The notes under the pieces: model-generated
Seen by the model: only the letters and a program-made list of their open reading frames with translations
Databases searched by the model: none
Told to the model about the DNA's origin: nothing
Translations under genes and position numbers: made by a program
Assembly (NCBI GenBank): GCA_021324735.1
Contig: JAJPIO010000009.1
Coordinates: 372,001-436,000, forward strand
Length of the DNA stretch: 64,000 nt
Source: Bacteroidota bacterium
GTDB taxonomy: Bacteria; Bacteroidota; Ignavibacteria; Palsa-1295
Reading direction: 5' to 3'
Shown here: piece after piece, positions 3,481-64,000 of the stretch
Numbering within the stretch: the first letter of the stretch is position 1
Layout of the letters: each line of letters begins with the position of its first letter

Positions 3481-4791
3481 TTAGGTGGATGTCGTACCGA
3501 GTTGGACCACGGGTGAGCGACCCGTTTCGCTGCCGCTTATAGTATCCGATTTTATGCCAAGCATTCTACCCAACGCGATATACACCTTAAATAATCGCGT
3601 GCCCGGTTTCGGCGCGTTCATAAACGGTGCCTCTACGAAGCGGAAGATGAACGCAATGATCGGGATCGAGAGGACCAATACTCCAATCCGAAGGACAAAC
3701 TGCAAAGCATCACCATTCAGCGTCCGTATCCAGGGATTTCCGAACCACGATAGCTGCATGTGGAAAAGGTAGATCGAATAGCTGATCGTACCGGACCAAA
3801 CAAGAAAACGGTAGGGCGACCAGCGCCAACTTTTCGCTTCAGCCGTCACCTTTCTGGACGGTACTATAGCCCCTGCGATGAGCAGCGCAAAGCCCAATCC
3901 GAAAACGATATCCGTTAAGAGCCACGTCGGTTGCCATAGCGTAGTAAGGATGGCTGCGAAGAGCACTGCTGCTGACGCTGTAACCAGTGGTACTCGTTTC
4001 GCCGTTAGATTTGCGCCCTTTACGAACCACTCGGCGAGCCAGGCGCCGAACAACCACTCCGGCATACGCGAAAAGACGAATCCCATCATGGCGTAGGGGC
4101 CAGTCCAGGCAACGCTAATAAGCTGCGATCCGAAATACTGCATCGAGATGAGTCGCCAGGCGATGGCAAAGATCGTAAGCATCGCGATCGATCGCGTAAG
4201 CCCCATCTTCCGGAACAAGTACAGGAAGAGCGGATACATCAGGTAGAGCTGAAACTCCAGCGCCAACGACCAATACACATGCACGATCCCGTAAAAGTAG
4301 CGGTCGAAATAGCCGTGCGTTAGCGTCAGGTGCGAGATCAGATTCAGCACCGTCGGCGAGCCTTCGACGTAATCCGTACCGTGCGCAGTGATGACCAGCA
4401 GCAGGTACGTCCCAACGACCGACACCGCATAGGCCGGATACAATCTCCAGAGCCGCCGCAGATAAAACTTCCGCCACTCGAACTTGTAGCTTCCGGCTTC
4501 GGCAGCTTTTCGTGCGAAGGGCAAATGAATACAAAATCCGCTAAGGACGAGGAACAACCCCACACCCAGATATCCCCACCGCAAGGGCGACGTCACATAC
4601 GCCAGCATTCCCGCGCCTTTGGTCCACGGCACGACGCCGAGCGAAGGGAAAGGGTAAACGCCGTAGTGTCCCCAGATGTGGTACCCCGCCACCATCAATG
4701 CCGCCACGCCACGCAGCGCATCGATCGAATCGAGGCGAAGCTTTATTGGGCCGGGTATCGGGTTTCGGGTCTCGGGTATCGGAGGGTTCAC
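3481..4791 (-). CDS. Acyltransferase 3 (OafA/YrhL-like) membrane protein
   Basis: 436-residue polytopic acyltransferase. Residues about 20-45 carry the family opening LDSIDALRGVAALMVAGYHIW, with the conserved His in the first helix. A WGYLGVGLFLVLSGFCIHLPF segment with the second helix-pair motif follows, and then about ten helices. Family members move acetyl or other acyl groups onto surface polysaccharides or lipids in the inner membrane. The apparent start is GTG at 4791. The first 13 codons come from a 7-bp-period repeat, giving the odd N-terminus PIPETRNPIPGPI. The GGAGGG ribosome site at 4803-4808 is the arm of a perfect inverted repeat whose other arm is codons 2-4. The true start could lie a little downstream, but no better in-frame ATG exists before the family domain. 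Confidence 0.85.
   Translation of the reverse strand: MNPPIPETRNPIPGPIKLRLDSIDALRGVAALMVAGYHIWGHYGVYPFPSLGVVPWTKGAGMLAYVTSPLRWGYLGVGLFLVLSGFCIHLPFARKAAEAGSYKFEWRKFYLRRLWRLYPAYAVSVVGTYLLLVITAHGTDYVEGSPTVLNLISHLTLTHGYFDRYFYGIVHVYWSLALEFQLYLMYPLFLYLFRKMGLTRSIAMLTIFAIAWRLISMQYFGSQLISVAWTGPYAMMGFVFSRMPEWLFGAWLAEWFVKGANLTAKRVPLVTASAAVLFAAILTTLWQPTWLLTDIVFGLGFALLIAGAIVPSRKVTAEAKSWRWSPYRFLVWSGTISYSIYLFHMQLSWFGNPWIRTLNGDALQFVLRIGVLVLSIPIIAFIFRFVEAPFMNAPKPGTRLFKVYIALGRMLGIKSDTISGSETGRSPVVQLGTTST
4752..4786. repeat. 7-bp-period array (CGGGTAT type)
   Basis: Four successive seven-base units read CGGGTAT, CGGGTTT, CGGGTCT and CGGGTAT, followed by a decayed CGGAGGG. The array codes for the first residues of the acyltransferase. 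It belongs to the window-wide set of degenerate heptamer arrays, which have different unit sequences at different loci. Confidence 0.75.
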
Positions 4792-9187: not shown

Positions 9188-12100
9188 CTATTTTGTATCG
9201 TTGATGATAACGAACTTCGATGTTTTGCTATCGACTGCATTGCCGTTAGCATCGGTGCCGCTGACTTCGTAGAGATAGAGTCCGCTGGGCATGAGGCGGC
9301 CTAAGTCATCGCGCATGTCCCACGCGGCGCCGCCCAGTTGTGTGCTCGTCGTTATCGTACGGACGGGATGCATATTCAGGGAGTAGATACGGATGGTCGC
9401 CTGCGGAGTAAGTCGCGCGAACGTGAGTTCACCGTCACTCGTCTTTGCCGGGTCGGGGTAAACGAACGCATTCTCTAAATTCGGTTCGATCACAGAAACA
9501 CCGGCGCAACTACCGGCGCCATTATCGAGCGGGGTATGGCGTGTGCTGGTAATGCCGTTTATACAAAGCACGAACGGAACCCCGAGTCCTGCAAGATGAA
9601 TGTTGCCGGCAACATCGATATACAGCGCATTAGGATTTGCGCTATCGATCGACACATTCGTTAACGTGCCGTAAGGCGAAAGCGAGTAATGAGAAACGTC
9701 GAGCGCATCGGATGATGGCTGTTCGTTAAAGATAACGTGAATGCGAAGTCCGTTCGGTCCTTGATCGAACGTCCACGAAACGATGTAAAACCGATCGAGC
9801 GTAACGACGTGCGAGACGTTGAAAACCAGATAGTGTACCGTATCGAATGGCGAGTTCAGCGTATCGCGCAGATCGAACGAGGTCACGCGTAACTTATGCG
9901 AGCCAACAGCAAGCGGTGCTTGAAGCGAGAGCACAAGCTTGTTTGGTCCGACGATAGCGATCGCATTAGGAAGAATGGTGTCATCGACCATTATTGTCCC
10001 AGCCCAAATGCGGGGCGTGCGAATGCCATTAGTTGAGTGAGCGAGAAGTGATTGTTCGCTCGAATATTGTGCGCTATCCAACTGAGGCATGGGATGCACG
10101 ATCACTTCGAATCCGAATGCCGGCAGGCTGATAGGAGTGCTGTAAGCTGGCGAAACCGCCGCAACGGAATATATCAGCACATCGCCGTTCGCTACGGTTG
10201 AATCGGTGTAACGCGATGAGGTGGTCGAGTCGATCACTGTGTACGTTCTATCCGTCGGCAGCGCGCGGAGAATAAGATATTTCGTTGCTTTTTCTACCGG
10301 CGCCCACTCCAGGTCAACGCGATCGGTATCGCGCGGAGAGACCATAAATCCGGCCGGTGAAGGCGTTTGCGTGAGATAAGAATTCGACCGTTCGAAAAAG
10401 CGAATGGAATCGCCGGCGAAAAATCCGAACTCACGTTTGCCGTTGCGGTCGAAATCCCATGCAAGTGCGCCGTGCGGGCTAGTGGAGAGAGGATACTGCC
10501 AGACCGGCTTCATCGCATGCGACGATGAATCGTACTCGATCAGATAGAAATTTGGGAAGAGCGAAAGCACCAGGTCATCGACCGAATGCCCCGTCACATT
10601 CGTAACGCGCGAGAGCGAGCAATTGCGATCGCTATTGATATAGAAGTGATCGTTCTGGTTCGACCCCCAGAAGTGCTCGACGTACATCGGCGCAAACTTC
10701 ATTCCGCCAAGGTTTCGCAGGACTTTTACCGTCCAATAGGCGGCATGATATTCATCGAGCGTATCCTGTTGGAAGATCGGGTGGTATGCAAAGGCGATAT
10801 CGGGTTTGCCATCGCCATCGAAATCACCGACGGTTACCAGCGAGCCGCTGGAGGCTCCATCATTCTCATCAGTAAAGACGGCGCGAAAACCGGTCGGCGC
10901 CGTAGCATCGCGCTCGTAAACGATGAGGTCGGCATCGTCATCGAGTGTGACGAGATCGTCAAAGCCGTTTCCGCGAAGATCCGCATGAACGACGTTCGGC
11001 CACGAATAGGTATTCTGCGAATTATAATAGTCTGGCGTCGATGGATTTATCATCGAGCCTAACTTGATGTAGCGGCCTGCATCGTATTTATAGGCTACGC
11101 AGGAATCGCCCAAGGTACCGATGACGTCCTGCGCATGATTCGCTTCCAGTGCCGCAAACGTGCTCCCATAGAGCGTATCATTTTGATAGATGATACCGCC
11201 TAAGATCGAATGTTTCCCATTCGCCTTATAAACTCGCGTCACGCCGCACGATTGGCTTCCACCAGACCCGCGAATATGCATGCCGAGCGAGTCGTAGGTT
11301 GTATCGTACGTAAAGGGAAAAAAGCACGTATCGATACTTTGCACGAGTAACTCGGGGCGATTATCGCCCTGCGAATTACCGAGCGCGCGAGGAATAGCAG
11401 GATCGTCGAGCGAGTCGATGGCGATAAAACGGCGCTTCGTCGAATCGAAACGAAAGACCGTGAGTATTCCGCTCTCGTTCGGATTCTCGATCGCTTCGTC
11501 GCCTGTTGGCAGCATGAGCGTCGTATCCAGCGCGAAGCCGCCAGGAAGCGTATATGGCTTTTCAACAAAACCATCCTGCGGTACAGCGTCATCTGGAATG
11601 ATGGCCGTGGTATCGATTATGGTTGTGTTGCCATCCGGTGTGCGAAGAATGGCCGCGATCGCAAGGGGCACTCCTGCTTGTGCGGCTTCTCGCTTGATGA
11701 GTGCAATGTGCTCGAAGCCGATCTTATCGTTCGCAATCGTGGAGGGCTTTGCACCTTGTGCAGCGTAGTGTACTTCGAGTTGGGTCGGAATATCGGAAGT
11801 AGCCTGAACGAGAAGTCCGCGCTGGTTATTGATCCATAAGGAATCGATAGAAAAGAGAACGAACTTCGGCGGTGCCGCTGCGAGCGCGATAATGCAATGC
11901 TCTTCGGTGCTGCGGTTATCACTCGAGCGGACCGCGAGGCGAACGGTGTAGTAGCCGGGCCGAAGTCCAGCCGTATTCCATACACCGAACGTAGTATCAA
12001 GGACCTGCGACGTACCACTCGCGATGTTGTGCCAATTGTTTACCGATGGGTTTGTATCTGGCCGCATGCCATACGCCCAATCGACAGAGTAACCGGTAAA

Positions 12101-13690
12101 CAGTGTGGAGATCGCGCTGCCGGTAAGGTGAATGGTATCGCCGATCCTGAATTCGTCGAGGCGGTGTGGCGATGTAAGCTTAATATTCGCGCCACCTTTG
12201 TACGTAAGTGCAGCGAGTGCATCGATGCGGCCATTGGCACTGCGATGATCGTAACCACGATCGCCGACGTCTTTCGTGGTCGATTCGATGATGCTTCGCA
12301 GTTCAACCGGGGAAAGCCTCGGATCTTTTGATAACAATAATGCGGCAATCCCTGCCGCGATCGGCGAAGCCGCGCTGGTACCAGAAACGGAATCGTACGA
12401 ACCACCTTTGGCGGTGGTGAGGACGTATTCCGCCGGTGCGACGACGTCTAACTCTTCGCTGTGCGTTGTAAATGCGTAAAGATTGTCGGGACTGGGGTAG
12501 CTCGTTGTTCCGCCGACTGAAACGACTTCATCGAATTCGGCAGGATAGTTGGGGCCATCCGTACCATCGTTACCACTCGATCCAAAAACGGCAACACCCT
12601 TTGCGATCGCATACCGAATGGCATCGCGTTGAAGTAGCGATGGAATAATATCACCGAACGAGCAATTGAGAACGCGAACACCATTATCGGCTGCATAGAC
12701 AATTGCGGAAGCGATATCATCGTCCTCACCGGTACCGTTGGCATCGAACGCCTTGAGCGCTACCAGCTTGCACTTCGGCGCAATACCGCTTACGCCAATA
12801 CCATTATTTTGCTGAGCTGCCAAAATGCCAGCGACGACCGTACCGTGGCCGTGTTCATCCACGGGAAACGGATCGCGGCCAAACCAATCGCCGGTATTTA
12901 TCTGCTCCTGATCGACGAAGTTGTAGCCGATGACGTCGTTAGCGTAGCCGTTGCCATCGTGGTCTTTGCCGTCGATGTCGCCGTAAACGGTATCGCCGCG
13001 CGCATCAACGCCTTTTACGGTGTCCGGCCATGCATCGAAGAGGCCGTTATGATTGATGTCTTCCGCAGGATTAACCGCGAATTGAAATTTGAGATCGGGA
13101 TGCAGCCAATCGACACCCGTATCGACAAAGCCGATCTTTACTGTGCTGTCGCCTTCGGTGATCTGCCATGCTTCGGGGGCGTGAACGTTCGTAAGCCACC
13201 ATTGGGCGAAGAAGAGAGGATCGTTGGGAGCAAAGTCCTCAGTGCTGAGTGCTGAGTGCTGAGTATCCATTTGATTAGACTTAGGACTCAGGACTAAGGA
13301 CTTAGGACTTCGATCGGCCTGAATGTGATATCTGTAATTCGGCTCGACGTATTCAAACTCGGGCACGCGTGCAAGTTGGCGAACGGCGTCCTGGGCGTTT
13401 AAGTCAGAACGGAGCGGAATTTGAACGATGCGATCGAGTGTCGAAGCGGAGTTTATTCCTTGTAAGCCTGCGCCTTTTGCAGGGCGCTTAAAAACCTGGC
13501 GATAAATAGTAGGAGAAGCGCTGACCGCTCGCAGTTTCGAAAGAGTGGCAGCATCGCCCAGGGCTGCAGCGGTTCGAAATTTTACGATAATGCTGTGGAC
13601 TGTGGAATCGATAAGGATAGAGTGCGAAGACTGAGCCTGCGCGCTTGCGCACCATGCGAGAAGTAGGAGAACGAGCAGCCGACGGTACAT
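9188..13690 (-). CDS. Large secreted subtilisin-like (S8) protease with FlgD-like C-terminus
   Basis: 1500 residues. Signal peptide (1-20), then a fervidolysin-type propeptide (HSIIVKFRTAAALGDAATL to YVEPNYRY). The S8 catalytic domain carries Asp near 190 (IGFVDTGVDWLHPDL), His near 277 (DEHGHGTVVAGILA) and Ser near 438 (SGTSAASPIAAGIAALL). Beyond it are beta-rich modules and FG-GAP/VCBS-like repeats (VTVGDFDGDGKPDIAFAY, VHADLRGNGFDDLVTLDDD, LAWDFDRNGKREFGFF). A fibronectin-III-like part follows, and finally a FlgD-like/T9SS-type end (IRIYSLNMHPVRTI, GRLMPSGLYLYEV). Likely an extracellular or surface protease. Residues about 127-152, between propeptide and catalytic domain, are encoded by two inverted 7-bp-period arrays. 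GGAAAGGA sits just before the ATG. Confidence 0.92.
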   Translation of the reverse strand: MYRRLLVLLLLAWCASAQAQSSHSILIDSTVHSIIVKFRTAAALGDAATLSKLRAVSASPTIYRQVFKRPAKGAGLQGINSASTLDRIVQIPLRSDLNAQDAVRQLARVPEFEYVEPNYRYHIQADRSPKSLVLSPKSNQMDTQHSALSTEDFAPNDPLFFAQWWLTNVHAPEAWQITEGDSTVKIGFVDTGVDWLHPDLKFQFAVNPAEDINHNGLFDAWPDTVKGVDARGDTVYGDIDGKDHDGNGYANDVIGYNFVDQEQINTGDWFGRDPFPVDEHGHGTVVAGILAAQQNNGIGVSGIAPKCKLVALKAFDANGTGEDDDIASAIVYAADNGVRVLNCSFGDIIPSLLQRDAIRYAIAKGVAVFGSSGNDGTDGPNYPAEFDEVVSVGGTTSYPSPDNLYAFTTHSEELDVVAPAEYVLTTAKGGSYDSVSGTSAASPIAAGIAALLLSKDPRLSPVELRSIIESTTKDVGDRGYDHRSANGRIDALAALTYKGGANIKLTSPHRLDEFRIGDTIHLTGSAISTLFTGYSVDWAYGMRPDTNPSVNNWHNIASGTSQVLDTTFGVWNTAGLRPGYYTVRLAVRSSDNRSTEEHCIIALAAAPPKFVLFSIDSLWINNQRGLLVQATSDIPTQLEVHYAAQGAKPSTIANDKIGFEHIALIKREAAQAGVPLAIAAILRTPDGNTTIIDTTAIIPDDAVPQDGFVEKPYTLPGGFALDTTLMLPTGDEAIENPNESGILTVFRFDSTKRRFIAIDSLDDPAIPRALGNSQGDNRPELLVQSIDTCFFPFTYDTTYDSLGMHIRGSGGSQSCGVTRVYKANGKHSILGGIIYQNDTLYGSTFAALEANHAQDVIGTLGDSCVAYKYDAGRYIKLGSMINPSTPDYYNSQNTYSWPNVVHADLRGNGFDDLVTLDDDADLIVYERDATAPTGFRAVFTDENDGASSGSLVTVGDFDGDGKPDIAFAYHPIFQQDTLDEYHAAYWTVKVLRNLGGMKFAPMYVEHFWGSNQNDHFYINSDRNCSLSRVTNVTGHSVDDLVLSLFPNFYLIEYDSSSHAMKPVWQYPLSTSPHGALAWDFDRNGKREFGFFAGDSIRFFERSNSYLTQTPSPAGFMVSPRDTDRVDLEWAPVEKATKYLILRALPTDRTYTVIDSTTSSRYTDSTVANGDVLIYSVAAVSPAYSTPISLPAFGFEVIVHPMPQLDSAQYSSEQSLLAHSTNGIRTPRIWAGTIMVDDTILPNAIAIVGPNKLVLSLQAPLAVGSHKLRVTSFDLRDTLNSPFDTVHYLVFNVSHVVTLDRFYIVSWTFDQGPNGLRIHVIFNEQPSSDALDVSHYSLSPYGTLTNVSIDSANPNALYIDVAGNIHLAGLGVPFVLCINGITSTRHTPLDNGAGSCAGVSVIEPNLENAFVYPDPAKTSDGELTFARLTPQATIRIYSLNMHPVRTITTSTQLGGAAWDMRDDLGRLMPSGLYLYEVSGTDANGNAVDSKTSKFVIINDTK
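13234..13308. repeat. Inverted pair of 7-bp-period arrays inside the subtilase gene
   Basis: Left array: AGTGCTG three times (13241-13261) with flanking variants GTCCTCA and AGTATCC. Right array: ATTAGAC, TTAGGAC, TCAGGAC, TAAGGAC, TTAGGAC (13274-13308). The right array read on the other strand is of the AGTCCTA type, so the two are in inverted orientation around a 5-base core. The insertion is in frame with the protease. Confidence 0.75.
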
Positions 13691-34567: not shown

Positions 34568-34634
34568 CGTTGAGAGGTGGAATACCTCGCTTACGAAAAA
34601 AACGCGTCCAGGATTCGATTTCCTGGTTTCCACC

Positions 34635-34676
34635 CGTCACCGTTCATCGTTCACCACTCACCGTTCACCACTCTTA
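34635..34676. repeat. 7-bp-period array (GTTCACC type)
   Basis: Consecutive sevens CGTCACC, GTTCATC, GTTCACC, ACTCACC, GTTCACC, ACTCTTA. The last unit holds the stop codon of the HisA-like gene. No inverted partner is obvious in the short gap to the lipocalin gene. Confidence 0.7.
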
Positions 34677-35453: not shown

Positions 35454-35942
35454 TGGCCGCGTAACACCATCGGCATGCGTCCGGTTTTATACGCATGGCC
35501 CGACCGATACGCGGCGATAGTTTTCAAGCCAGTTGTGTGCGTTTAATATTCATAATTGCCTGCTCCGGTTTTTAAATCATCTGCTCGGTTTTCAAAAGAA
35601 CTAGCTTCGAACAGAAGGTAAACAAATGGGCACCTATATCATCGTTCCCGTGGGCATCTGAACTGAGATTTGTGGGACAGTTCACACAGTAGAGCAAGCT
35701 AAAGCTTGCTCTACACTTTAACTCTTCGCCGAGAGAGCCCATATATCCCTCCGTCCCATAAGTCCCAGTTCAAACGATAGAGCAAGCTAAAACTTACTCC
35801 ACATTTTTACTTTGCTTGACAGATCTCAGCTATCCCTCCATCCCCCAAATCCCAGTTCAGACGATGGAGCAAGCTAAAGCTTGCTCTACACTTTTACCTT
35901 GCACTTTTAACTCTTCGCTCGTCGAAGTTGTTAACTCGCGCA
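35454..35942. other. Intergenic region with repeats
   Basis: 489 bases. The first 170 bases are AT-rich with no recognised signal. The second half carries three copies of an 88-base repeat (see 35690-35891). No gene or RNA was recognised. The promoter of the downstream membrane-protein gene must lie within or after the repeats. Confidence 0.45.
35690..35891. repeat. Triplicated GAGCAAGCT palindrome element
   Basis: Three copies at 35690-35716, 35778-35804 and 35865-35891, about 88 bases apart. Copies 1 and 3 form 9-10-bp hairpins with arms AGAGCAAGCT/AGCTTGCTCT around AA. The middle copy has lost pairing at several positions, so it is decaying. Between them lie CCCTCC and AAGTCCCAGTTCA/AAATCCCAGTTCA words shared with 4966-5024 and about 7125-7155. 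Confidence 0.65.
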
Positions 35943-36712: not shown

Positions 36713-36834
36713 AAAGTGCTAAGTCCTGAGTCCTAAGTAGTTTGCGCCGAAACGTTAGGGCTATCTTACTTAGCACTAAGCACTTAGGACTCAGCACTTC
36801 CAACCTCTTTAGCACTCAGTACTTAGCACTATAC
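36713..36834. repeat. Inverted 7-bp-period arrays upstream of smc
   Basis: Left array: AGTGCTA, AGTCCTG, AGTCCTA (36715-36735). Right arrays: ACTTAGC, ACTAAGC, ACTTAGG, ACTCAGC (36768-36795) and ACTCAGT, ACTTAGC, ACTATAC (36814-36834). The right units are the reverse complement type of the left ones, with a core of about 30 bases between. The last array ends five bases before the GTG start of smc. Confidence 0.75.
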
Positions 36835-51183: not shown

Positions 51184-51837
51184 ATGTTGCGAATCCCCCG
51201 ATCAGTTTATCTTTTTGCCATCGTCGCATTTCTTGCCGGATGCGGAATATTCGGTAAGGCCGAGCGCAAGGTTGCGCTGTTGCCTCCTTATTCACCACAA
51301 CCGGACCTCTTAGGTGAAGATTATTTCCATTCACCGGCAGGGGATGTTGCCGCACGATATCCGAAAAACTGGCTGCATGTGGATATACGGACCATTCCAA
51401 TGCAGAACGTGCTCGAAGTCTATACGGATGAGGCGCGCTCCAAAGCTCTTGTATTAGCAGAGATCCCGGCCACGGCGGAATTCCGGCGCGAAGTAGAGCG
51501 TGATGGTATGGAGGCGCTGGCAAACCAGTCGTTCGCTTCAAAATCGGCGAAGGTCTCTGGCAAACTTGCCATTACGCGCCCGACGCAGATCTATAGCGAG
51601 AACGGGAAGCTTTTTGCGAGTTACGAATACGCGGAAGCAGCGTCGGATTCATTACATCGCAAAGAGAATCGGATCGTGCTGTTTACGACCGGTTCAAAGT
51701 TTTACGAGCTGGGTATGATCGAGTTAGAGGCGCCGCAGAGCACGATGGAACATGCTCAGAACTTCCGCATTTTAGAGTCTGTTATCGCGTCGCTCGAAGG
51801 CGTAGCCGAAGTTCAGGCCGACACAACGCTGGACTAA
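51184..51837 (+). CDS. Hypothetical lipoprotein
   Basis: 217 residues from ATG 51184; an in-frame GTG three bases earlier is possible. The signal peptide ends in lipobox LAGCGIF. The mature part contains FHSPAGDVAARYPKNWLHVDI, SKALVLAEIPATAEFRREVERDGMEALANQSF and FRILESVIASLEG. The pattern recalls PsbP/DUF1795-like 'user-friendly' sandwich domains that start with a membrane-lipid-like YPxNW segment, but assignment is tentative. It ends directly at a heptamer array. Confidence 0.7.
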   Translation: MLRIPRSVYLFAIVAFLAGCGIFGKAERKVALLPPYSPQPDLLGEDYFHSPAGDVAARYPKNWLHVDIRTIPMQNVLEVYTDEARSKALVLAEIPATAEFRREVERDGMEALANQSFASKSAKVSGKLAITRPTQIYSENGKLFASYEYAEAASDSLHRKENRIVLFTTGSKFYELGMIELEAPQSTMEHAQNFRILESVIASLEGVAEVQADTTLD

Positions 51838-51924
51838 AGTATGAATGATGAAGTATGAAGTATGAATTCTTAGATTTTTAGCTTCATCATTCAATTTTCT
51901 GACTTTTTACCTCATACTTCACTT
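51837..51924. repeat. 7-bp-period arrays in inverted orientation with 12-bp hairpin
   Basis: Left array AAGTATG, AATGATG, AAGTATG, AAGTATG (51837-51864). The right side has the complementary sense (CTTCATCATTCA at 51882-51893; CTCATAC, TTCACTT at 51911-51924). TGAATGATGAAG (51842-51853) and CTTCATCATTCA form a perfect 12-bp stem followed by ATTTTCTGACTTTTT, so it may also terminate the lipoprotein mRNA. Confidence 0.7.
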
Positions 51925-51930
51925 TTTTGT

Positions 51931-52002
51931 TGGGGCGTCGCCAAGCGGTAAGGCACCGCCCTTTGGAGGCGGCATTCGGAGGTTCGAATCCTCCCGCCCC
52001 AG
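51931..52002 (+). tRNA. tRNA-Gln (anticodon TTG)
   Basis: A 72-nt cloverleaf. Acceptor arms TGGGGCG (51931-51937) and CGCCCCA (51995-52001) with discriminator G. D-arm GCC...GGC; anticodon stem CCGCC/GGCGG around loop CTTTGGA (51961-51967) with anticodon TTG. T-arm GGAGG/CCTCC around TTCGAAT. CCA is not encoded. It sits between two heptamer-array clusters. Confidence 0.95.
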
Positions 52003-52003
52003 C

Positions 52004-52038
52004 AATGAAGGTTTGAAGTATGAGGTAAGAAGTAAGAA
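52004..52038. repeat. 7-bp-period array, left flank of the four-helix-bundle gene
   Basis: Consecutive sevens AATGAAG, GTTTGAA, GTATGAG, GTAAGAA, GTAAGAA. It begins two bases after the tRNA and ends six bases before the ATG of the four-helix-bundle gene. Confidence 0.7.
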
Positions 52039-52044
52039 TAGGAT

Positions 52045-52395
52045 ATGAAAGACAACGATCTTCGTGAACGGACGAAGAAGTACGCTCTACGTATTATCAA
52101 CTTAGTGAACTCGCTGCCGACCAATAGAGTCGGAAGAGTTATTGCCGAACAGGTTGTTCGAAGCGGAACGTCAGTCGGTGCACAGTACCGAGAAGCCTTT
52201 CGGGCGAAATCAAAACCGGATTATATCAGTAAGATCACGGGTTCGCTTGGGGAGCTGGAAGAAACACAATATTGGCTCGAACTTGTGATCGAAGCAAAGC
52301 TTATTAAGAACGAACGACTCGGACCCTTGCTTCAGGAGACGAACGAACTGATCGCGATCCTCACGACCATCGTTCTTAAATTGAAGAGAAGCTGA
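52045..52395 (+). CDS. Four-helix-bundle protein (23S-rRNA IVP / S23 family, Avd-like)
   Basis: 116 residues, all helical. Family marks: LRERTKKYALRIINLVNSLPTNRVGRVIAEQVVRSGTSVGAQYREAFRAKSKPDYISKI (read as helix 1, then QVVRSGTSVGAQYREA), then GSLGELEETQYWLELVIEAKLI and a final helix NELIAILTTIVLKLK. The family was first seen in intervening sequences of 23S rRNA genes and is structurally related to Avd of diversity-generating retroelements. Free-standing copies have no known function. Here it is bounded on both sides by inverted 7-bp arrays, directly after tRNA-Gln, and no 23S rRNA is near. Confidence 0.9.
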   Translation: MKDNDLRERTKKYALRIINLVNSLPTNRVGRVIAEQVVRSGTSVGAQYREAFRAKSKPDYISKITGSLGELEETQYWLELVIEAKLIKNERLGPLLQETNELIAILTTIVLKLKRS

Positions 52396-52409
52396 GACTG
52401 ATCGAATTT

Positions 52410-52437
52410 TTCATACTTCATAGTTCATACTTCATAC
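52410..52437. repeat. 7-bp-period array, right flank of the four-helix-bundle gene
   Basis: Consecutive sevens TTCATAC, TTCATAG, TTCATAC, TTCATAC: the reverse complement type of the left-flank units (GTATGAA). The final TACTTTTC lies four bases before the GTG of prs and could act as a degenerate -7 box. Confidence 0.75.
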
Positions 52438-52446
52438 TTTTCGCCC

Positions 52447-53385
52447 GTGTCTCACCCAAAGTTAGTTTCCGGTCGTAGCAATTTAAAGTTTGCAGAAGCC
52501 GTTGCGGCCAGCCTGGCGATACCGCTTGCAAGTGTGCGCATCAAAAATTTCTCCGATGGAGAAATGTGGGTCAAGTACGACGAGAACATCCGTGGCGAAG
52601 ATCTCTTCATTATCCAGTCCACGATGCCGCCGTCGGATAATCTGTTCGAGCTGCTTATGCTTATCGACGCGGCGCGAAGGGCGAGTGCGCGTCGCATTAC
52701 GGCAGTTATTCCATACTTTGGCTATGCGCGGCAGGACCGCAAAGATCAGCCGCGTGTGGCGATCACCAGTAAGCTCGTAGCCAATCTTATTACAGAAGCG
52801 GGCGCCGATCGCGTTATCTCGATGGATCTGCATGCTCCGCAGCTTCAGGGATTTTTCGATATTCCGTTCGACCACCTTTACGCGTCGAATACGTTCGTCA
52901 AGTATTTTAAGGAAGAGAAGATCAAAAACATGACCGTTGCCTCGCCGGATGTTGGCGGTACGAAGATGGCCCGGTCCTATGCGAAGCGGTTCAACAGCGA
53001 TCTTATCGTTATCGACAAACGCCGTCCGGCGCCGAACGTGGCCGAAGTGATGAATATCATCGGCGATCCTTCGGATAAGAACGTGATACTCATCGACGAC
53101 CTGATTGATACCGCCGGCACATTTACCAATGCTGCCTATGCCTTAAAGAAGGCCGGTGCGAAGGCAATTTATGGTGCATGTACTCATCCGGTGCTAAGCG
53201 GAGAAGCGATCAAGCGTATCGAGGACTCGCCGCTCGAGTGTGTTGTGGTTACGGATACGATCCCATTAAAGAAAAAGTCGAATAAGATACGTGTGCGTTC
53301 GGTAGCTCGTGTGTTTGCGGAAGCGATCAAGCGCACGCACGAGGATAAGTCGATCTCGTCGCTCTTCGACACGGAGAAGAGCTAA
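52447..53385 (+). CDS. prs: Ribose-phosphate pyrophosphokinase
   Basis: 312 residues; makes PRPP from ribose-5-phosphate and ATP, the substrate used by PurF in this window. Landmarks: LVSGRSNLKFAEAVA, FSDGEMWVKYDENIRGEDLFIIQST, YFGYARQDRKDQPRVAITSKLVA, MDLHAPQLQGFFDIP, VASPDVGGTKMARSYA and the PRPP loop VILIDDLIDTAGTFTNAA. The start is GTG 52447, directly after the heptamer array and without a ribosome site. A leaderless mRNA from the TACTTTTC box is possible. Confidence 0.96.
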   Translation: MSHPKLVSGRSNLKFAEAVAASLAIPLASVRIKNFSDGEMWVKYDENIRGEDLFIIQSTMPPSDNLFELLMLIDAARRASARRITAVIPYFGYARQDRKDQPRVAITSKLVANLITEAGADRVISMDLHAPQLQGFFDIPFDHLYASNTFVKYFKEEKIKNMTVASPDVGGTKMARSYAKRFNSDLIVIDKRRPAPNVAEVMNIIGDPSDKNVILIDDLIDTAGTFTNAAYALKKAGAKAIYGACTHPVLSGEAIKRIEDSPLECVVVTDTIPLKKKSNKIRVRSVARVFAEAIKRTHEDKSISSLFDTEKS

Positions 53386-58642: not shown

Positions 58643-61600
58643 ATGAAGCAGAAAGTAACGCCGAAAGCCAGTGCTAAATCATCGTACTCGATGGAAGAAC
58701 GCGGCTCATCGCATGGAGCCACCAATGGTAATGGTTCGCACGGTGGCGAAAGCCCGTTTGCAAACGATCCTGAAAGAAAGCCTACCCGGCGCTCCGCAGC
58801 AACGCGCACGACGACGGTTGGCGAGATTCAGACCGTCCCGGTAGCGGTCACCGGATTCCAGAATGGAAAGTCCGGCCATGGTGGCCTCGACCAACTGGAG
58901 CCGGCAAGCGCACGGCGCCTTCTGAACACTCTCGTTGCCGTTCGCAAAGGAGATTTTTCGGCCCGATTTCCAGTCGATGAAACGCTCGCGGTTACCGATT
59001 CGCTGACGTATCGCATTGCACAGGAGCTCAATGAAATTATCGAGATGAACCAGAACCTCGTTCGCGAACTCGAGCGAACGAGCGCAGCCGTCGGTAAAGA
59101 AGGAAAGATCACGCAGCGTGCCACGCTTCCTAATGCGTCCGGCGCATGGGCTGTTGCGATCGAAGGTGTTAATACGCTCATTACCGATCTGGCCCAACCG
59201 CTGACGGAAGTTTCTCGCGTTATCGGCGGTGTAGCTCGCGGCGATCTTTCGCAACCGATGTCTTTGGAGATCGAAGGGCGCCCGCTCAAAGGTGAATTCC
59301 TTCGAATGGGTAAAGTCGTCAATACGATGGTGGAGCAGCTAAGCTCGTTCGCATCGGAAGTAACCCGTGTAGCCCGCGAAGTAGGTACGGAAGGAAAGCT
59401 GGGCGGTCAGGCTATCGTGAAAGGCGTCTCGGGTACGTGGAAGGACCTTACAGACAGTGTAAACTTCATGGCCTCGAATCTTACGTCTCAAGTGCGTAAC
59501 ATCGCCGACGTAACAACGGCGGTAGCTAATGGAGACTTGTCGAAGAAGATCACAGTAGATGTAAAAGGAGAGATCCAGGAGCTGAAGAACACGATCAACA
59601 CGATGGTGGACCAGCTAAGCTCGTTCGCATCGGAAGTAACGCGCGTTGCTCGCGAAGTAGGTACGGAAGGAAAACTGGGCGGTCAGGCGCAGGTAAAAGG
59701 CGTCTCGGGTACGTGGAAAGACCTGACAGACAATGTAAACTTCATGGCCTCGAACCTTACCGCTCAGGTGCGTAACATTGCTAACGTAACGACGGCCGTA
59801 GCTAATGGCGATTTGTCGAAGAAGATCACGGTAGATGTAAAGGGCGAAATCCTGGAGCTGAAGAACACGATCAACACGATGGTGGACCAGCTAAACTCCT
59901 TTGCCTCGGAAGTAACGCGTGTAGCTCGTGAAGTAGGTACCGAAGGAAAGCTGGGTGGTCAAGCTATCGTGAAAGGCGTCTCTGGTACATGGAAAGACCT
60001 GACGGACAATGTAAACTTCATGGCCTCGAACCTTACGGGCCAGGTGCGCAACATCGCCGATGTTACGACGGCAGTAGCTAATGGTGACTTGTCGAAGAAG
60101 ATCACAGTAGATGTAAAGGGAGAGATCTTAGAGCTGAAAAACACGATCAACACGATGGTGGATCAGCTCTCATCGTTCGCTGCTGAAGTAACACGCGTTG
60201 CTCGTGAAGTAGGTACGGAAGGAAAGCTGGGCGGTCAGGCCGATGTAAAAGGCGTTGCCGGTGTGTGGAAAGACCTGACGGACAATGTAAACTTCATGGC
60301 CTCGAACCTTACGGGCCAGGTGCGTAACATCGCCGAAGTTACAACGGCGGTAGCTAATGGTGATCTGGGTAAGAAGATCACAGTAGATGTAAAAGGAGAG
60401 ATCTTAGAGCTGAAGAACACGATCAACACGATGGTGGACCAGCTCTCGTCGTTTGCATCGGAAGTAACGCGCGTTGCGCGTGAAGTAGGTACGGAAGGAA
60501 AACTGGGCGGTCAGGCAGATGTAAAAGGCGTTGCCGGTACCTGGAAGGACCTGACGGACAATGTAAACTTCATGGCTGCCAACCTGACATCTCAGGTGCG
60601 TAACATCGCTGAAGTTACAACGGCGGTAGCTAATGGTGATCTGAGTAAGAAGATCACGGTAGATGTAAAGGGAGAGATCCTGGAGCTGAAGAACACGGTC
60701 AATACGATGGTGGACCAGCTAAACTCCTTCGCCGCCGAAGTAACGCGCGTGGCGCGTGAAGTAGGTACGGATGGTAAGCTGGGCGGTCAGGCGGATGTAA
60801 AAGGCGTCGCCGGTACATGGAAAGACCTGACAGACAATGTAAACTTCATGGCCTCGAACCTTACGGGCCAGGTGCGTAACATTGCGGACGTTACAACGGC
60901 GGTAGCTAATGGAGACTTGTCGAAGAAGATCACAGTAGATGTAAAGGGAGAGATCTTAGAGCTGAAGAACACGATCAACACGATGGTGGACCGCTTGGGA
61001 TCGTTCGCATCGGAAGTAACCCGTGTAGCCCGCGAAGTAGGTACGGATGGTAAACTGGGCGGCCAAGCAGAAGTGCGAGGTGTTGCCGGTGTCTGGAAAG
61101 ACCTGACGGACAATGTAAACTCGATGGCTGGTAATCTTACAGCCCAGGTGCGTAACATCGCCGACGTAACAACGGCCGTAGCTAATGGTGATCTGGGTAA
61201 GAAGATCACGGTAGATGTAAAGGGCGAAATCCTGGAGCTGAAAAACACGATCAACACGATGGTGGACCAGCTTTCATCATTCGCAGCCGAAGTAACGCGC
61301 GTTGCTCGTGAAGTAGGTACGGAAGGAAAACTGGGTGGTCAGGCGCAGGTAAAAGGCGTCTCGGGCACGTGGAAAGACCTTACAGATAGTGTAAACTTCA
61401 TGGCCTCGAACCTTACGTCTCAGGTGCGTAACATTGCCGACGTAACAACGGCGGTAGCTAATGGCGATCTGAGTAAGAAGATCACAGTAGATGTAAAGGG
61501 CGAAATTTTGGAGCTGAAGAACACGATCAACACGATGGTGGACCAGCTAAACTCCTTTGCATCGGAAGTAACGCGTGTAGCGCGTGAAGTAGGTACGGAA

Positions 61601-64000
61601 GGAAAGCTGGGTGGTCAGGCCGATGTAAAAGGCGTCTCGGGTACGTGGAAAGATCTGACGGACAATGTAAACTTCATGGCCTCGAACCTTACGGGCCAGG
61701 TGCGTAACATTGCTAACGTTACAACGGCGGTAGCTAATGGCGATCTGAGTAAGAAGATCACAGTAGATGTAAAGGGCGAAATTTTGGAGCTGAAAGACAC
61801 GATCAATACGATGGTGGACCAGCTAAACTCCTTCGCATCGGAAGTAACACGCGTGGCGCGTGAAGTAGGTACGGATGGAAAACTGGGCGGTCAGGCAGAA
61901 GTGCGAGGTGTTGCCGGCGTCTGGAAAGACCTGACGGACAATGTAAATTACATGGCTGCTAACCTGACGACTCAGGTGCGCGGTATTGCCCGAGTCGTTA
62001 CGGCGGTCGCTAATGGTAACCTGAAGCGAAAACTTTCGGTGGAAGCCATGGGCGAAATTGCCGAACTCGCCGATACGATCAACGCCATGATCGATACACT
62101 CGCAACGTTCGCCGATCAGGTAACGACGGTGGCCCGCGAAGTAGGTATCGAAGGAAAGCTCGGCGGTCAGGCAAACGTACCGGGTGCTTCCGGAACGTGG
62201 AGAGACTTAACGGACAATGTAAACCGACTCGCTGCTAACCTGACGACTCAGGTGCGCGCTATGGCCGAGGTCGCTACGGCAGTAACGAAGGGTGATCTAT
62301 CACGAATGATCACCGTCGAAGCTGCAGGTGAAGTTGCGTACCTTAAGGACAACGTGAACGAGATGATCCGTAACCTTAAGGATACGACACGCAAGAACAC
62401 CGAACAGGACTGGCTCAAAACGAACCTTGCCCGGTTCACGAGACTCCTGCAAGGACAAAAAGACTTGTGGACGGTATCGCGACTCATCCTCAGCGAGCTT
62501 GCTCCGCTCGTCAATATGCAGCATGGCGTCTTCTATATTACGGAGCCGGCGGGCGATCAGCCGATCCTCAAGCTGCTCGCAAGCTATGCATACCGTGAGC
62601 GTAAGAACTTATCGAACCAATTCAAATTGGGCGAGGGCCTGGTCGGTCAATGTGCGCTCGAAAAAGAGCGGATCGTTATCTCCGGTATTCCGGGCGATTA
62701 CATCAAGGTCAACTCCGGCCTTGGAGAAGCATCGCCACTCAATATCGTCGTATTGCCGGTACTCTTCGAAGGCAATGTCAAGGCGGTCATCGAGCTGGCG
62801 AGCTTTGCACCGTTCAGCGAGATCCACATCGCATTCCTCGATCAGTTGACAGAATCGATCGGTATCGTTTTGAATACGATCGAAGCGAATATGCGTACGG
62901 AATCACTCCTTGCGCAATCGCAGTCACTCACACAGGAACTGCAATCGCAACAGCAGGAGCTGACGGAAACGAACCGCCGCCTCGAACAGCAAGCAAAATC
63001 GTTGCAGGCTTCCGAAGAACTGCTCAAGCAGCAACAGGAAGAGCTCCAGCAAACGAACGAAGAGCTGCAGGACAAAGCGAAACTCCTCAGCGAGCAAAAG
63101 AGCGAGGTCGAATACAAGAACCGCGAGATCGAACTGGCCCGCCGCGCACTCGAAGAAAAAGCAGAGCAGTTGGCGCTCACGTCGAAGTATAAGTCAGAAT
63201 TCCTGGCGAATATGTCGCACGAGTTACGCACACCGCTCAACTCCATGCTGATCCTTTCGAAGATGCTGGCGGAGAACAACGAGGACAATCTTACGCCGAA
63301 GCAGGTCGAATTCTCGGAGACGATCTACTCGAGTGGTGCGGACCTGTTGGCACTCATCAATGAGATACTCGATCTCTCCAAGATCGAATCGGGCACCATG
63401 GCAGTCGATATTTCCGAGGTCAACGTGCCCGAACTCGAGGACGATCTGCACCGGACCTTCGATACACTCTCGAATGAAAAGGGACTGAAGTTCCAGATCG
63501 TACGCTCTGCCGATATGCCGGAGACGATCACTACCGATTCGCATCGGTTGGAGCAGGTGCTCAAGAACTTACTCTCCAATGCGTTCAAATTCACGCATGA
63601 AGGAAGCGTGCGGCTGGAAATTTCGCCAGCATCGCGCGAGATCAAGTTCGACAATGAGATCCTTAAGAAAGCACCGAACGTCATTGCGTTCAGCGTAACG
63701 GATACCGGAATTGGTATCGCACCATCGAAGCAGAAACTGATCTTCGAGCCATTCCAGCAAGCCGATGGTACGACCAGCCGTGAATACGGCGGTACGGGGC
63801 TGGGCCTTTCGATCTCGAGGGAAATAGCCCGCTTACTGGGCGGTGAGATCCACCTCAAGAGCGATCTGGGCCAGGGCAGTACGTTTACGTTGTACCTACC
63901 GGTCCATTATGTACCGACCATTATCGGTCTGCGCAGCGAGAATGGAACGAACGGTCAGGATCAGGAGCGATCGTCTCAGGCAGAGGTGTCGAAACAAGGA
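58643..64000 (+). CDS. Giant soluble histidine kinase with tandem HAMP array (3' end outside window)
   Basis: An open frame of 1786 codons runs to the window end. Start ATG 58643 with AGGAG nine bases before it. Order: a low-complexity basic N-terminus (1-85); a HAMP-like segment from about 95 ([14 protein letters not shown]); then eleven 92-residue repeats (about 245-1250) of the type [19 protein letters not shown]...[17 protein letters not shown]...[26 protein letters not shown] domain follows (about 1265-1410), then a Gln/Glu-rich coiled coil (1410-1510). The kinase core has SHELRTPLN with the phospho-His near 1526, N-box [13 protein letters not shown], and G-boxes VTDTGIGI and [18 protein letters not shown]. 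No transmembrane helix. The layout is that of group III (fungal Nik1-like) hybrid kinases, so receiver domains may follow beyond the window. Confidence 0.93.
59381..62416 (+). repeat. Eleven tandem 276-bp HAMP-coding repeats
   Basis: The word GTAGGTACGGA (GTAGGTATCGA in the last copy) starts at 59381 and recurs every 276 bases through to 62141 in the same frame. Inner copies are nearly identical even at silent positions, while the last copies (from about 61970) diverge. This is a coding tandem repeat, not a CRISPR array. Confidence 0.9.

Follow-up and report, generated by a model that had tools for sequence, protein, structure and literature searches.

Mirror-image heptamer arrays flank free-standing IVP/S23 genes and suggest a small insertion element

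The IVP locus between tRNA-Gln and prs

The host genome belongs to the Bacteroidota, and its relatives with names are Ignavibacteria and Kapaibacteria. In the window, the whole stretch of 64,000 nucleotides that was analysed, a small IVP/S23 gene lies between tRNA-Gln and prs (Table 1). A sequence-only reading had described this gene as bracketed by inverted heptamer arrays, and the bracketing was confirmed in the sequence. The upstream arm reads TTGAAGTATGAGGTAAGAAGTAAGAA and is followed by a 6 bp gap and the ATG at 52045. The downstream arm reads TTCATACTTCATAGTTCATACTTCATACTT (52410-52439), and prs starts at 52447. The TTCATAC array reported after the gene is real, both by inspection and by repeat search. 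For the array said to end six bases before the gene, the gap holds, but the arm is degenerate and spans ~52013-52038. IVP is the sole gene between the arms of the elements described here, where no transposase is represented.

The clean downstream arm of the window copy pairs better with a gene-less array at 51837-51866, in a gapless inverted match of score 22, than with the degenerate proximal arm. This distal array forms the left half of an inverted pair before tRNA-Gln that had also been noticed earlier and is equally genuine. A similar pair is found in G009 and a partial one in G006. The predicted RNA fold of 52004-52446 is still closed by its own arms (z -3.4), and own-arm matches at tRNA-Gln/prs average higher than cross-species ones in this small, decaying set.

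Table 1. Features of the IVP locus and heptad arrays elsewhere in the window
Feature	Position	Strand	Basis or context
Lone heptad array, CGGGTAT	4752-4782	.	Repeat is that of IVP element L020 in a genus mate
Gene-less heptad hairpin, AGTCCT/AGTGCTG family	13234-13310	.	In frame in subtilase-like gene 9188-13690(-)
Lone degenerate heptad array (CACCGTT)	34631-34669	.	Repeat search
Three gene-less heptad arrays, AGTCCTG/AGTGCTA family	36713-36834	.	Upstream of smc
Gene-less pair before tRNA-Gln, left arm, AAGTATG (the IVP element's heptamer)	51837-51866	+	Sequence; repeat search
Gene-less pair before tRNA-Gln, right arm, TTCATCATTCAA...CCTCATACTTCA	~51882-51921	-	Sequence
tRNA-Gln	51931-52003		Upstream neighbour of IVP element
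Upstream (left) arm, heptamers GAAGTAT/GAGGTAA/GAAGTAA	~52013-52038	+	Sequence; TRF period 7
IVP/S23 four-helix-bundle gene, 116 aa	52045-52395	+	PF05635, TIGR02436, AlphaFold, Foldseek
Downstream (right) arm, inverted heptamer array TTCATAC	52410-52439	-	Sequence; repeat and inverted-match search

The 116-aa product is matched by PF05635 (E 2.9e-19; 69.7 bits, curated cut-off 33.8) and by TIGR02436 (E 1.7e-25; 89.4 bits, curated cut-off 24). Aligned with eight relatives, it was modelled by AlphaFold as four helices with a pLDDT of 94.1; a single-sequence run gave a pLDDT of 49, and the figures used here rest on the aligned run instead. The top structures found by Foldseek were 2RLD (Bacteroides, S23 family; TM-score 0.88) and 2GSC (Xanthomonas). 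Next came 4DWL (TM-score 0.78 on the query), the Avd protein encoded by the diversity-generating retroelement (DGR) of a Bordetella phage. Five chains are present in each of 2RLD and 2GSC (chains A-E), and the Xanthomonas IVP/S23 protein was reported to be a homopentamer (PMC4990558). We infer from these structures that the IVP protein of the elements would be a ring-shaped pentamer.

A great many genomes have IVP/S23 annotations with no function assigned, and we know of no catalytic activity for these proteins. Among IVP orthologues retained in place, dN/dS is 0.02-0.18; the gene product therefore functions as a protein. Two longer proteins, L005 (G000 C16:190110-190331) and L006 (G000 C7:347602-347748), have weak, sub-threshold similarity to IVP and no arrays, and weak matches of this kind recur among genus mates.

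Gene-less sets of heptad arrays had also been reported at two further places in the window. Both are real (13234-13310 and 36713-36834), the second consisting of three arrays, not two. The 77-bp hairpin at the first site adds ~25 aa to the protease in which it lies, and nine of nine orthologues are without it (1 filled of 10). The arrays upstream of smc are missing from 8/8 relatives (1 filled of 9). The gene-less arrays agree more closely with the IVP elements of their own genome than random sets do (118/5000 as good), and no IVP remnants were found inside the gene-less hairpins. The idea that the gene-bearing copy is autonomous and the gene-less sets its non-autonomous relatives is thus supported as to kinship, the repeat families being the same, while autonomy of the gene-bearing form is presumptive. 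In 100-kb samples from each of four IVP-rich and four IVP-free genomes, gene-less arrays were not clearly commoner in the former.

Across 863 kb, made up of fetched stretches of the genome and the window, period 7 with its double, 14, gave 18 calls, whereas the remaining periods between 4 and 13 gave 1-6 calls apiece. Sixteen of the 18 are real once an N-run and a contig-end array are dropped. At a lower threshold, the density of period 7 fell from 1.92/kb close to the four IVP genes (up to 300 bp away) to 0.27/kb in the remaining intergenic DNA, and coding DNA had 0.018/kb. For the other periods, intergenic densities were 0-0.07/kb.

A run of 15 perfect CCGATAC heptamers stands at a contig end ~670 bp after an IVP gene (L144; G000 contig C11, 295525-295631). 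Long heptad arrays seem to break assembly, so that array lengths in drafts may be underestimated. Two longer tandem repeats also occur in the window. A 276-bp unit repeated 9.6 times inside coding sequence (59319-61980) resembles a string of HAMP-type domains from a sensor histidine kinase, and an 87-bp repeat of 2.6 copies (35678-35902), with a palindromic AGAGCAAGCTAAAGCTTGCTCT core, bears no relation to the heptads.

Mirror-image arrays at IVP genes and their link to the protein

An enlarged set of 106 free-standing PF05635 genes was drawn from the genome's own family, other Bacteroidota, Verrucomicrobia, an acidobacterium and a deltaproteobacterium; sampling leans toward high-scoring IVP genes, and the loci are partly non-independent. 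A period-7 or -8 array is present at one or both ends of 88/106 genes (37/41, 23/30 and 28/33 by group). An inverted flank match with a score of at least 14 was found at 70/106, compared with 13/1490 swapped pairs (0.9%), and 93/106 have an array or an inverted match. The 13 genes with neither include a supported clade (L014, L031, L058), possibly of domesticated copies. For the 79 genes of the initial set, the best inverted flank match scored 16 at the median, versus 8 after flanks were swapped between genes.

The sequence-only reading had proposed to look for heptamer enrichment beside homologous genes. It is plainly there: a period-7 array lies within 250 bp of 75/107 IVP genes versus 20/631 windows of the same loci at a distance of over 700 bp, and the arrays are inverted, with matching heptamers. 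Where both flanks carry heptad arrays (n=39), the two heptamers are the same in 20/39 and differ by at most one base in 31/39, the expectation being ~3%. The flanks agree only as reverse complements; direct-orientation and swapped controls are at chance. Arrays have a median length of 4.4 units, with 4-5 units in 62/139, and median distances are 11 bp from the stop codon to the downstream array and 34 bp from the end of the upstream array to the start codon. In this genome, inverted repeat arms flank each of the four IVP genes, and the repeat differs from gene to gene. An IVP gene with mirror-image arrays is therefore a unit structure and a general pattern.

The repeat goes with the protein lineage, not with the host genome. 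On the protein tree, period 7 and period 8 cluster (7 changes vs 13.3 when shuffled; 0/500 as low). Heptamers agree within one mismatch in 44% of cross-genome pairs of proteins at least 60% identical, versus ~2% of those below 40% identity, and in 0/74 same-genome pairs below 40% (Mantel 0/2000). The AAGGATG heptamer even recurs across phyla, in L016, L024 and the verrucomicrobial L164. This linkage excludes that the arrays are a property of host or locus; shared descent could by itself suffice to produce it. Octamer elements were seen at L009, L017, L019, L022, L071, L076, L077, L081, L093, L098 and L242, of which L022 is nested in a clade of AGTGCT heptamer elements.

Filled and empty sites

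Genomes differ by whole blocks: a unit, with or without a gene, is found or lacking exactly at a gene junction and in one case within a reading frame. Conservation of the whole block in place in all relatives, an outcome that the sequence-only reading had named as telling against it, was not observed: the three other IVP elements of this genome, both gene-less sets and the plasmids described below all show empty or IVP-less sites. The element between dnaB and gmk (L002) is missing from 8/8 relatives checked, and in G010 the two genes lie ~10 bp apart. The element on the 5' side of dppB (L001) is likewise missing from 8/8 relatives, four of which retain a short heptad array. A third, at an aldolase-gene junction (L003), is missing from 7/7 relatives that have the gene, and in most of these seven the flanking genes overlap or nearly touch.

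The window's own copy is older. The element is common to five species of the genus, in two of which it is intact, in one interrupted by stop codons and in two internally deleted; the other genera are without it. There, tRNA-Gln lies within ~130 bp of prs, and the interval holds short, unrelated hairpins (L041-L044), with GTACAAT heptads in G012, gene-less AAAGTCA heptads in G004 and a GC-rich hairpin in G011. The tRNA-Gln/prs interval is a recurrent landing place, and the window copy is an ancestral insertion between these two genes in this genus of the Ignavibacteria/Kapaibacteria group, intact here and decaying in sister species.

Replacement was seen in genus g47. One site is empty in G077, and its IVP in G050 differs from that in G112, G066 and G038; at a second site the G112 and G066 elements are ~65-69% identical and their flanks ~91-94%. 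The g47 loci L211, L217, L229, L230 and L222 occupy two neighbouring operon junctions, with the IVP swapped or missing between flanks that are ~90% identical. Gain and loss are mostly unpolarised in these comparisons, except at sites filled in one of 9-10 genomes. No near-identical copies were seen at different sites of one genome, so recent within-genome hopping is at most a possibility.

Two plasmids, pNsp_c of Nostoc sp. ATCC 53789 (NZ_CP046706.1) and pC052_D of Nostoc sp. C052 (NZ_CP040276.1), provide a closer comparison. Their backbones are 93%, 99.7% and 91.6% identical in three blocks. Each plasmid has a different IVP element, at sites 0.3 kb apart, and each lacks an insert where its counterpart is filled. 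The pNsp_c element (WP_114083260.1; insert of 503 bp) lies behind WP_104899637.1, and the empty site in pC052_D reads GAGGTAATGGGATTTG. The pC052_D element (WP_114080759.1; ~421 bp) lies ahead of the WP_104899637.1 gene, and the empty site in pNsp_c reads GGTTCTAGGTTATGCAAATC. A target duplication, the doubling of ATG, was found at the pNsp_c site only, the remaining sites being highly diverged.

Three other cyanobacterial cases add to these. Mirror-image arms enclose an IVP gene between cas6 and cas4 on pANA02 of Anabaena sp. 90 (L240), between cas10 and cmr3 in Picosynechococcus sp. PCC 7003 (L243) and, in antisense orientation, between nrdB and nrdA on pNe_5 of Nostoc edaphicum. IVP elements within CRISPR-Cas operons might be mistaken for Cas accessory genes. 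A period-8 IVP case in Gemmatirosa (Gemmatimonadota), added to those in Cyanobacteriota, Bacteroidota, Verrucomicrobia, Acidobacteria and a deltaproteobacterium, brings the architecture to at least six phyla.

A candidate element, its rivals and known systems

The observations probably describe an IVP insertion element with repeat-array ends, a protein that reads its own repeat, and rRNA intervening sequences (IVSs) as a subset. Such an element would be ~400-500 bp long and consist of one IVP/S23 gene inside terminal inverted repeats, each an array in which a unit of 7 bp, or more rarely 8 bp, occurs 3-6 times (mostly 4-5). In the hairpin that both arms form as RNA or DNA, each subunit of the pentamer would read roughly one copy of the protein's own repeat; the IVP protein probably binds its own 4-5-unit terminal arrays. 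Binding of this kind would lead to a fixed period per lineage, to 4-5 units, and to tolerance of any repeat as long as the arms agree. It would also join both ends of the element, and with a host activity insertion elsewhere would become possible, both for the element itself and for gene-less derivatives that share its arms. As to the insertion enzyme, replication- or recombination-based hairpin insertion is our guess. The 23S rRNA IVSs would be elements that landed in rRNA, where RNase III cuts out the paired arms; insertion into transcribed regions, rRNA included, would be tolerable because the paired-arm RNA stem can be cut out. Filled and empty sites would also arise from horizontal arrival with recombination, and the strong purifying selection on elements that stay in place suits a host function as well as a selfish one.

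The IVP protein may instead be a stationary, self-regulating RNA- or DNA-binding protein, with the arrays as its operator and terminator, the gene-less hairpins as targets in trans, and ordinary gain, loss and transfer behind the empty sites. In-place orthologues under strong purifying selection (dN/dS 0.02-0.18), an upstream array located in the 5' untranslated region, the tracking of repeat identity with protein lineage and the resemblance of gene-less hairpins to resident IVP arms all suit a regulator of this type. They have to be set against a gene-less hairpin inserted within the protease reading frame, insertions at exact stop/start junctions whose same neighbours are empty elsewhere, the replacement by a different IVP at one g47 site, the antisense position between nrdB and nrdA, and the identical architecture of rRNA IVSs, so that a purely stationary role appears unlikely. 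That the arrays are slippage repeats or terminator-like hairpins, gathering in intergenic DNA near small genes, is hardly credible, although a bacterial excess of heptamers has been ascribed to polymerase slippage (reported in PMC4692102). Against it stand matching heptamers in mirror image, a repeat and period specific to lineage, block-wise insertion, and an array density beside IVP genes above that of the remaining intergenic DNA. Arm matching, the insertion data and the enrichment (75/107 vs 20/631; 1.92 vs 0.27/kb) refute slippage and generic intergenic repeats.

Two further rivals retain mobility and assign it to a known enzyme. A Y1 (HUH) transposase could move the units in trans, as RAYT does for REP/BIME, with IVP as a stabilising accessory; the elements have the form of hairpins with inverted-repeat ends, and this genome has 11 Y1_Tnp genes. 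This is nonetheless improbable, for the units studied contain no Y1 gene, the repeat type tracks the IVP protein rather than a transposase, and three complete IVP-rich genomes, G041 (9 IVPs on one contig), G054 (8) and G013 (6), are without a PF01797 match. Dependence on a Y1 transposase is accordingly not general. Retro-mobilisation would have the IVP protein recruit a reverse transcriptase, as Avd, whose fold it shares, serves that of DGRs, where Avd is required for retrohoming (PMC10053308). Unlike the setting of DGR Avd, this 100%-complete genome has no reverse transcriptase candidate (PF00078), and reverse transcriptases are found as often in genomes that lack IVP (12/32) as in those that have it (46/116). 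Dependence on reverse transcriptase was rejected for this genome, and as a general explanation it is very improbable.

The insertion-element reading invites comparison with several known systems. In the 23S rRNA IVS of Coxiella, an S23p ORF stands behind tandem GACAGAT heptamers within a 28-bp terminal stem, and the IVS is excised by RNase III (PMC4990558). The elements resemble the IVSs of Coxiella and Leptospira in placing an IVP ORF between complementary ends, and that of Coxiella in the heptamer repeats just before the ORF (PMC4990558). Unlike 23S IVSs, they have arrays on both sides, gene-less versions and many copies per genome; the window element lies between tRNA-Gln and prs and others at intergenic junctions, and the IVP loci tested gave no match to E. 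coli 23S rRNA. RNase III excision is a feature of Coxiella, its counterpart here being a predicted stem (z -3.4). REP/BIME-RAYT systems and MITE-type hairpins likewise have short inverted repeats and gene-less copies sharing ends with gene-bearing ones, and classical IS and MITEs share the terminal inverted repeats (70/106 inverted matches). In contrast to REP/BIME-RAYT and MITEs, the arms here are 7/8-bp arrays whose sequence varies by element, the unit contains no transposase gene, and no fixed target duplication was apparent at the sites compared.

Intergenic heptamers have been described before, as STRRs of Calothrix and Nostoc, GGGAATC in Xanthomonas and TAACTGA in Beggiatoaceae (PMC4692102, PMC4679880). 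The arrays studied here resemble them in having period 7, in being intergenic and in being G-rich, as in the plasmid arms TAGGGAG, GGGGAAA and CAGGAGT. They differ in their link to IVP genes and in their mirror-image pairing; the portions of PMC4692102 and PMC4679880 that were searched make no link to IVP/S23. Relative to these portions, what is new is the association with the gene and the pairing of arrays in mirror image. In the open-access PMC literature, no paper was found that ties free-standing IVP genes to heptamer arrays.

A stronger claim is advanced tentatively and stays somewhat doubtful: the elements may form a new mobile class with no nuclease, transposase or reverse transcriptase, in which a ring protein would set the ends, one 7-8-nt repeat per subunit, under lock-and-key co-diversification. 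IVSs, hairpins and much of the heptamer excess would then be its products.

The rRNA intervening sequences have stood for more than 25 years without explanation. The present results suggest that IVP/S23 proteins and rRNA IVSs belong to one widespread mini-element, and the repeat array offers a functional handle, as the probable binding site of IVP, a different one for each protein lineage. Named cases that can be cultured are at hand in the plasmids of Nostoc, Anabaena and Picosynechococcus. A cause for part of the bacterial heptamer excess, for which PMC4692102 offers slippage alone, may also lie here, a connection that is only suggestive. An element that moved with one protein, itself no enzyme, would, if true, be surprising.
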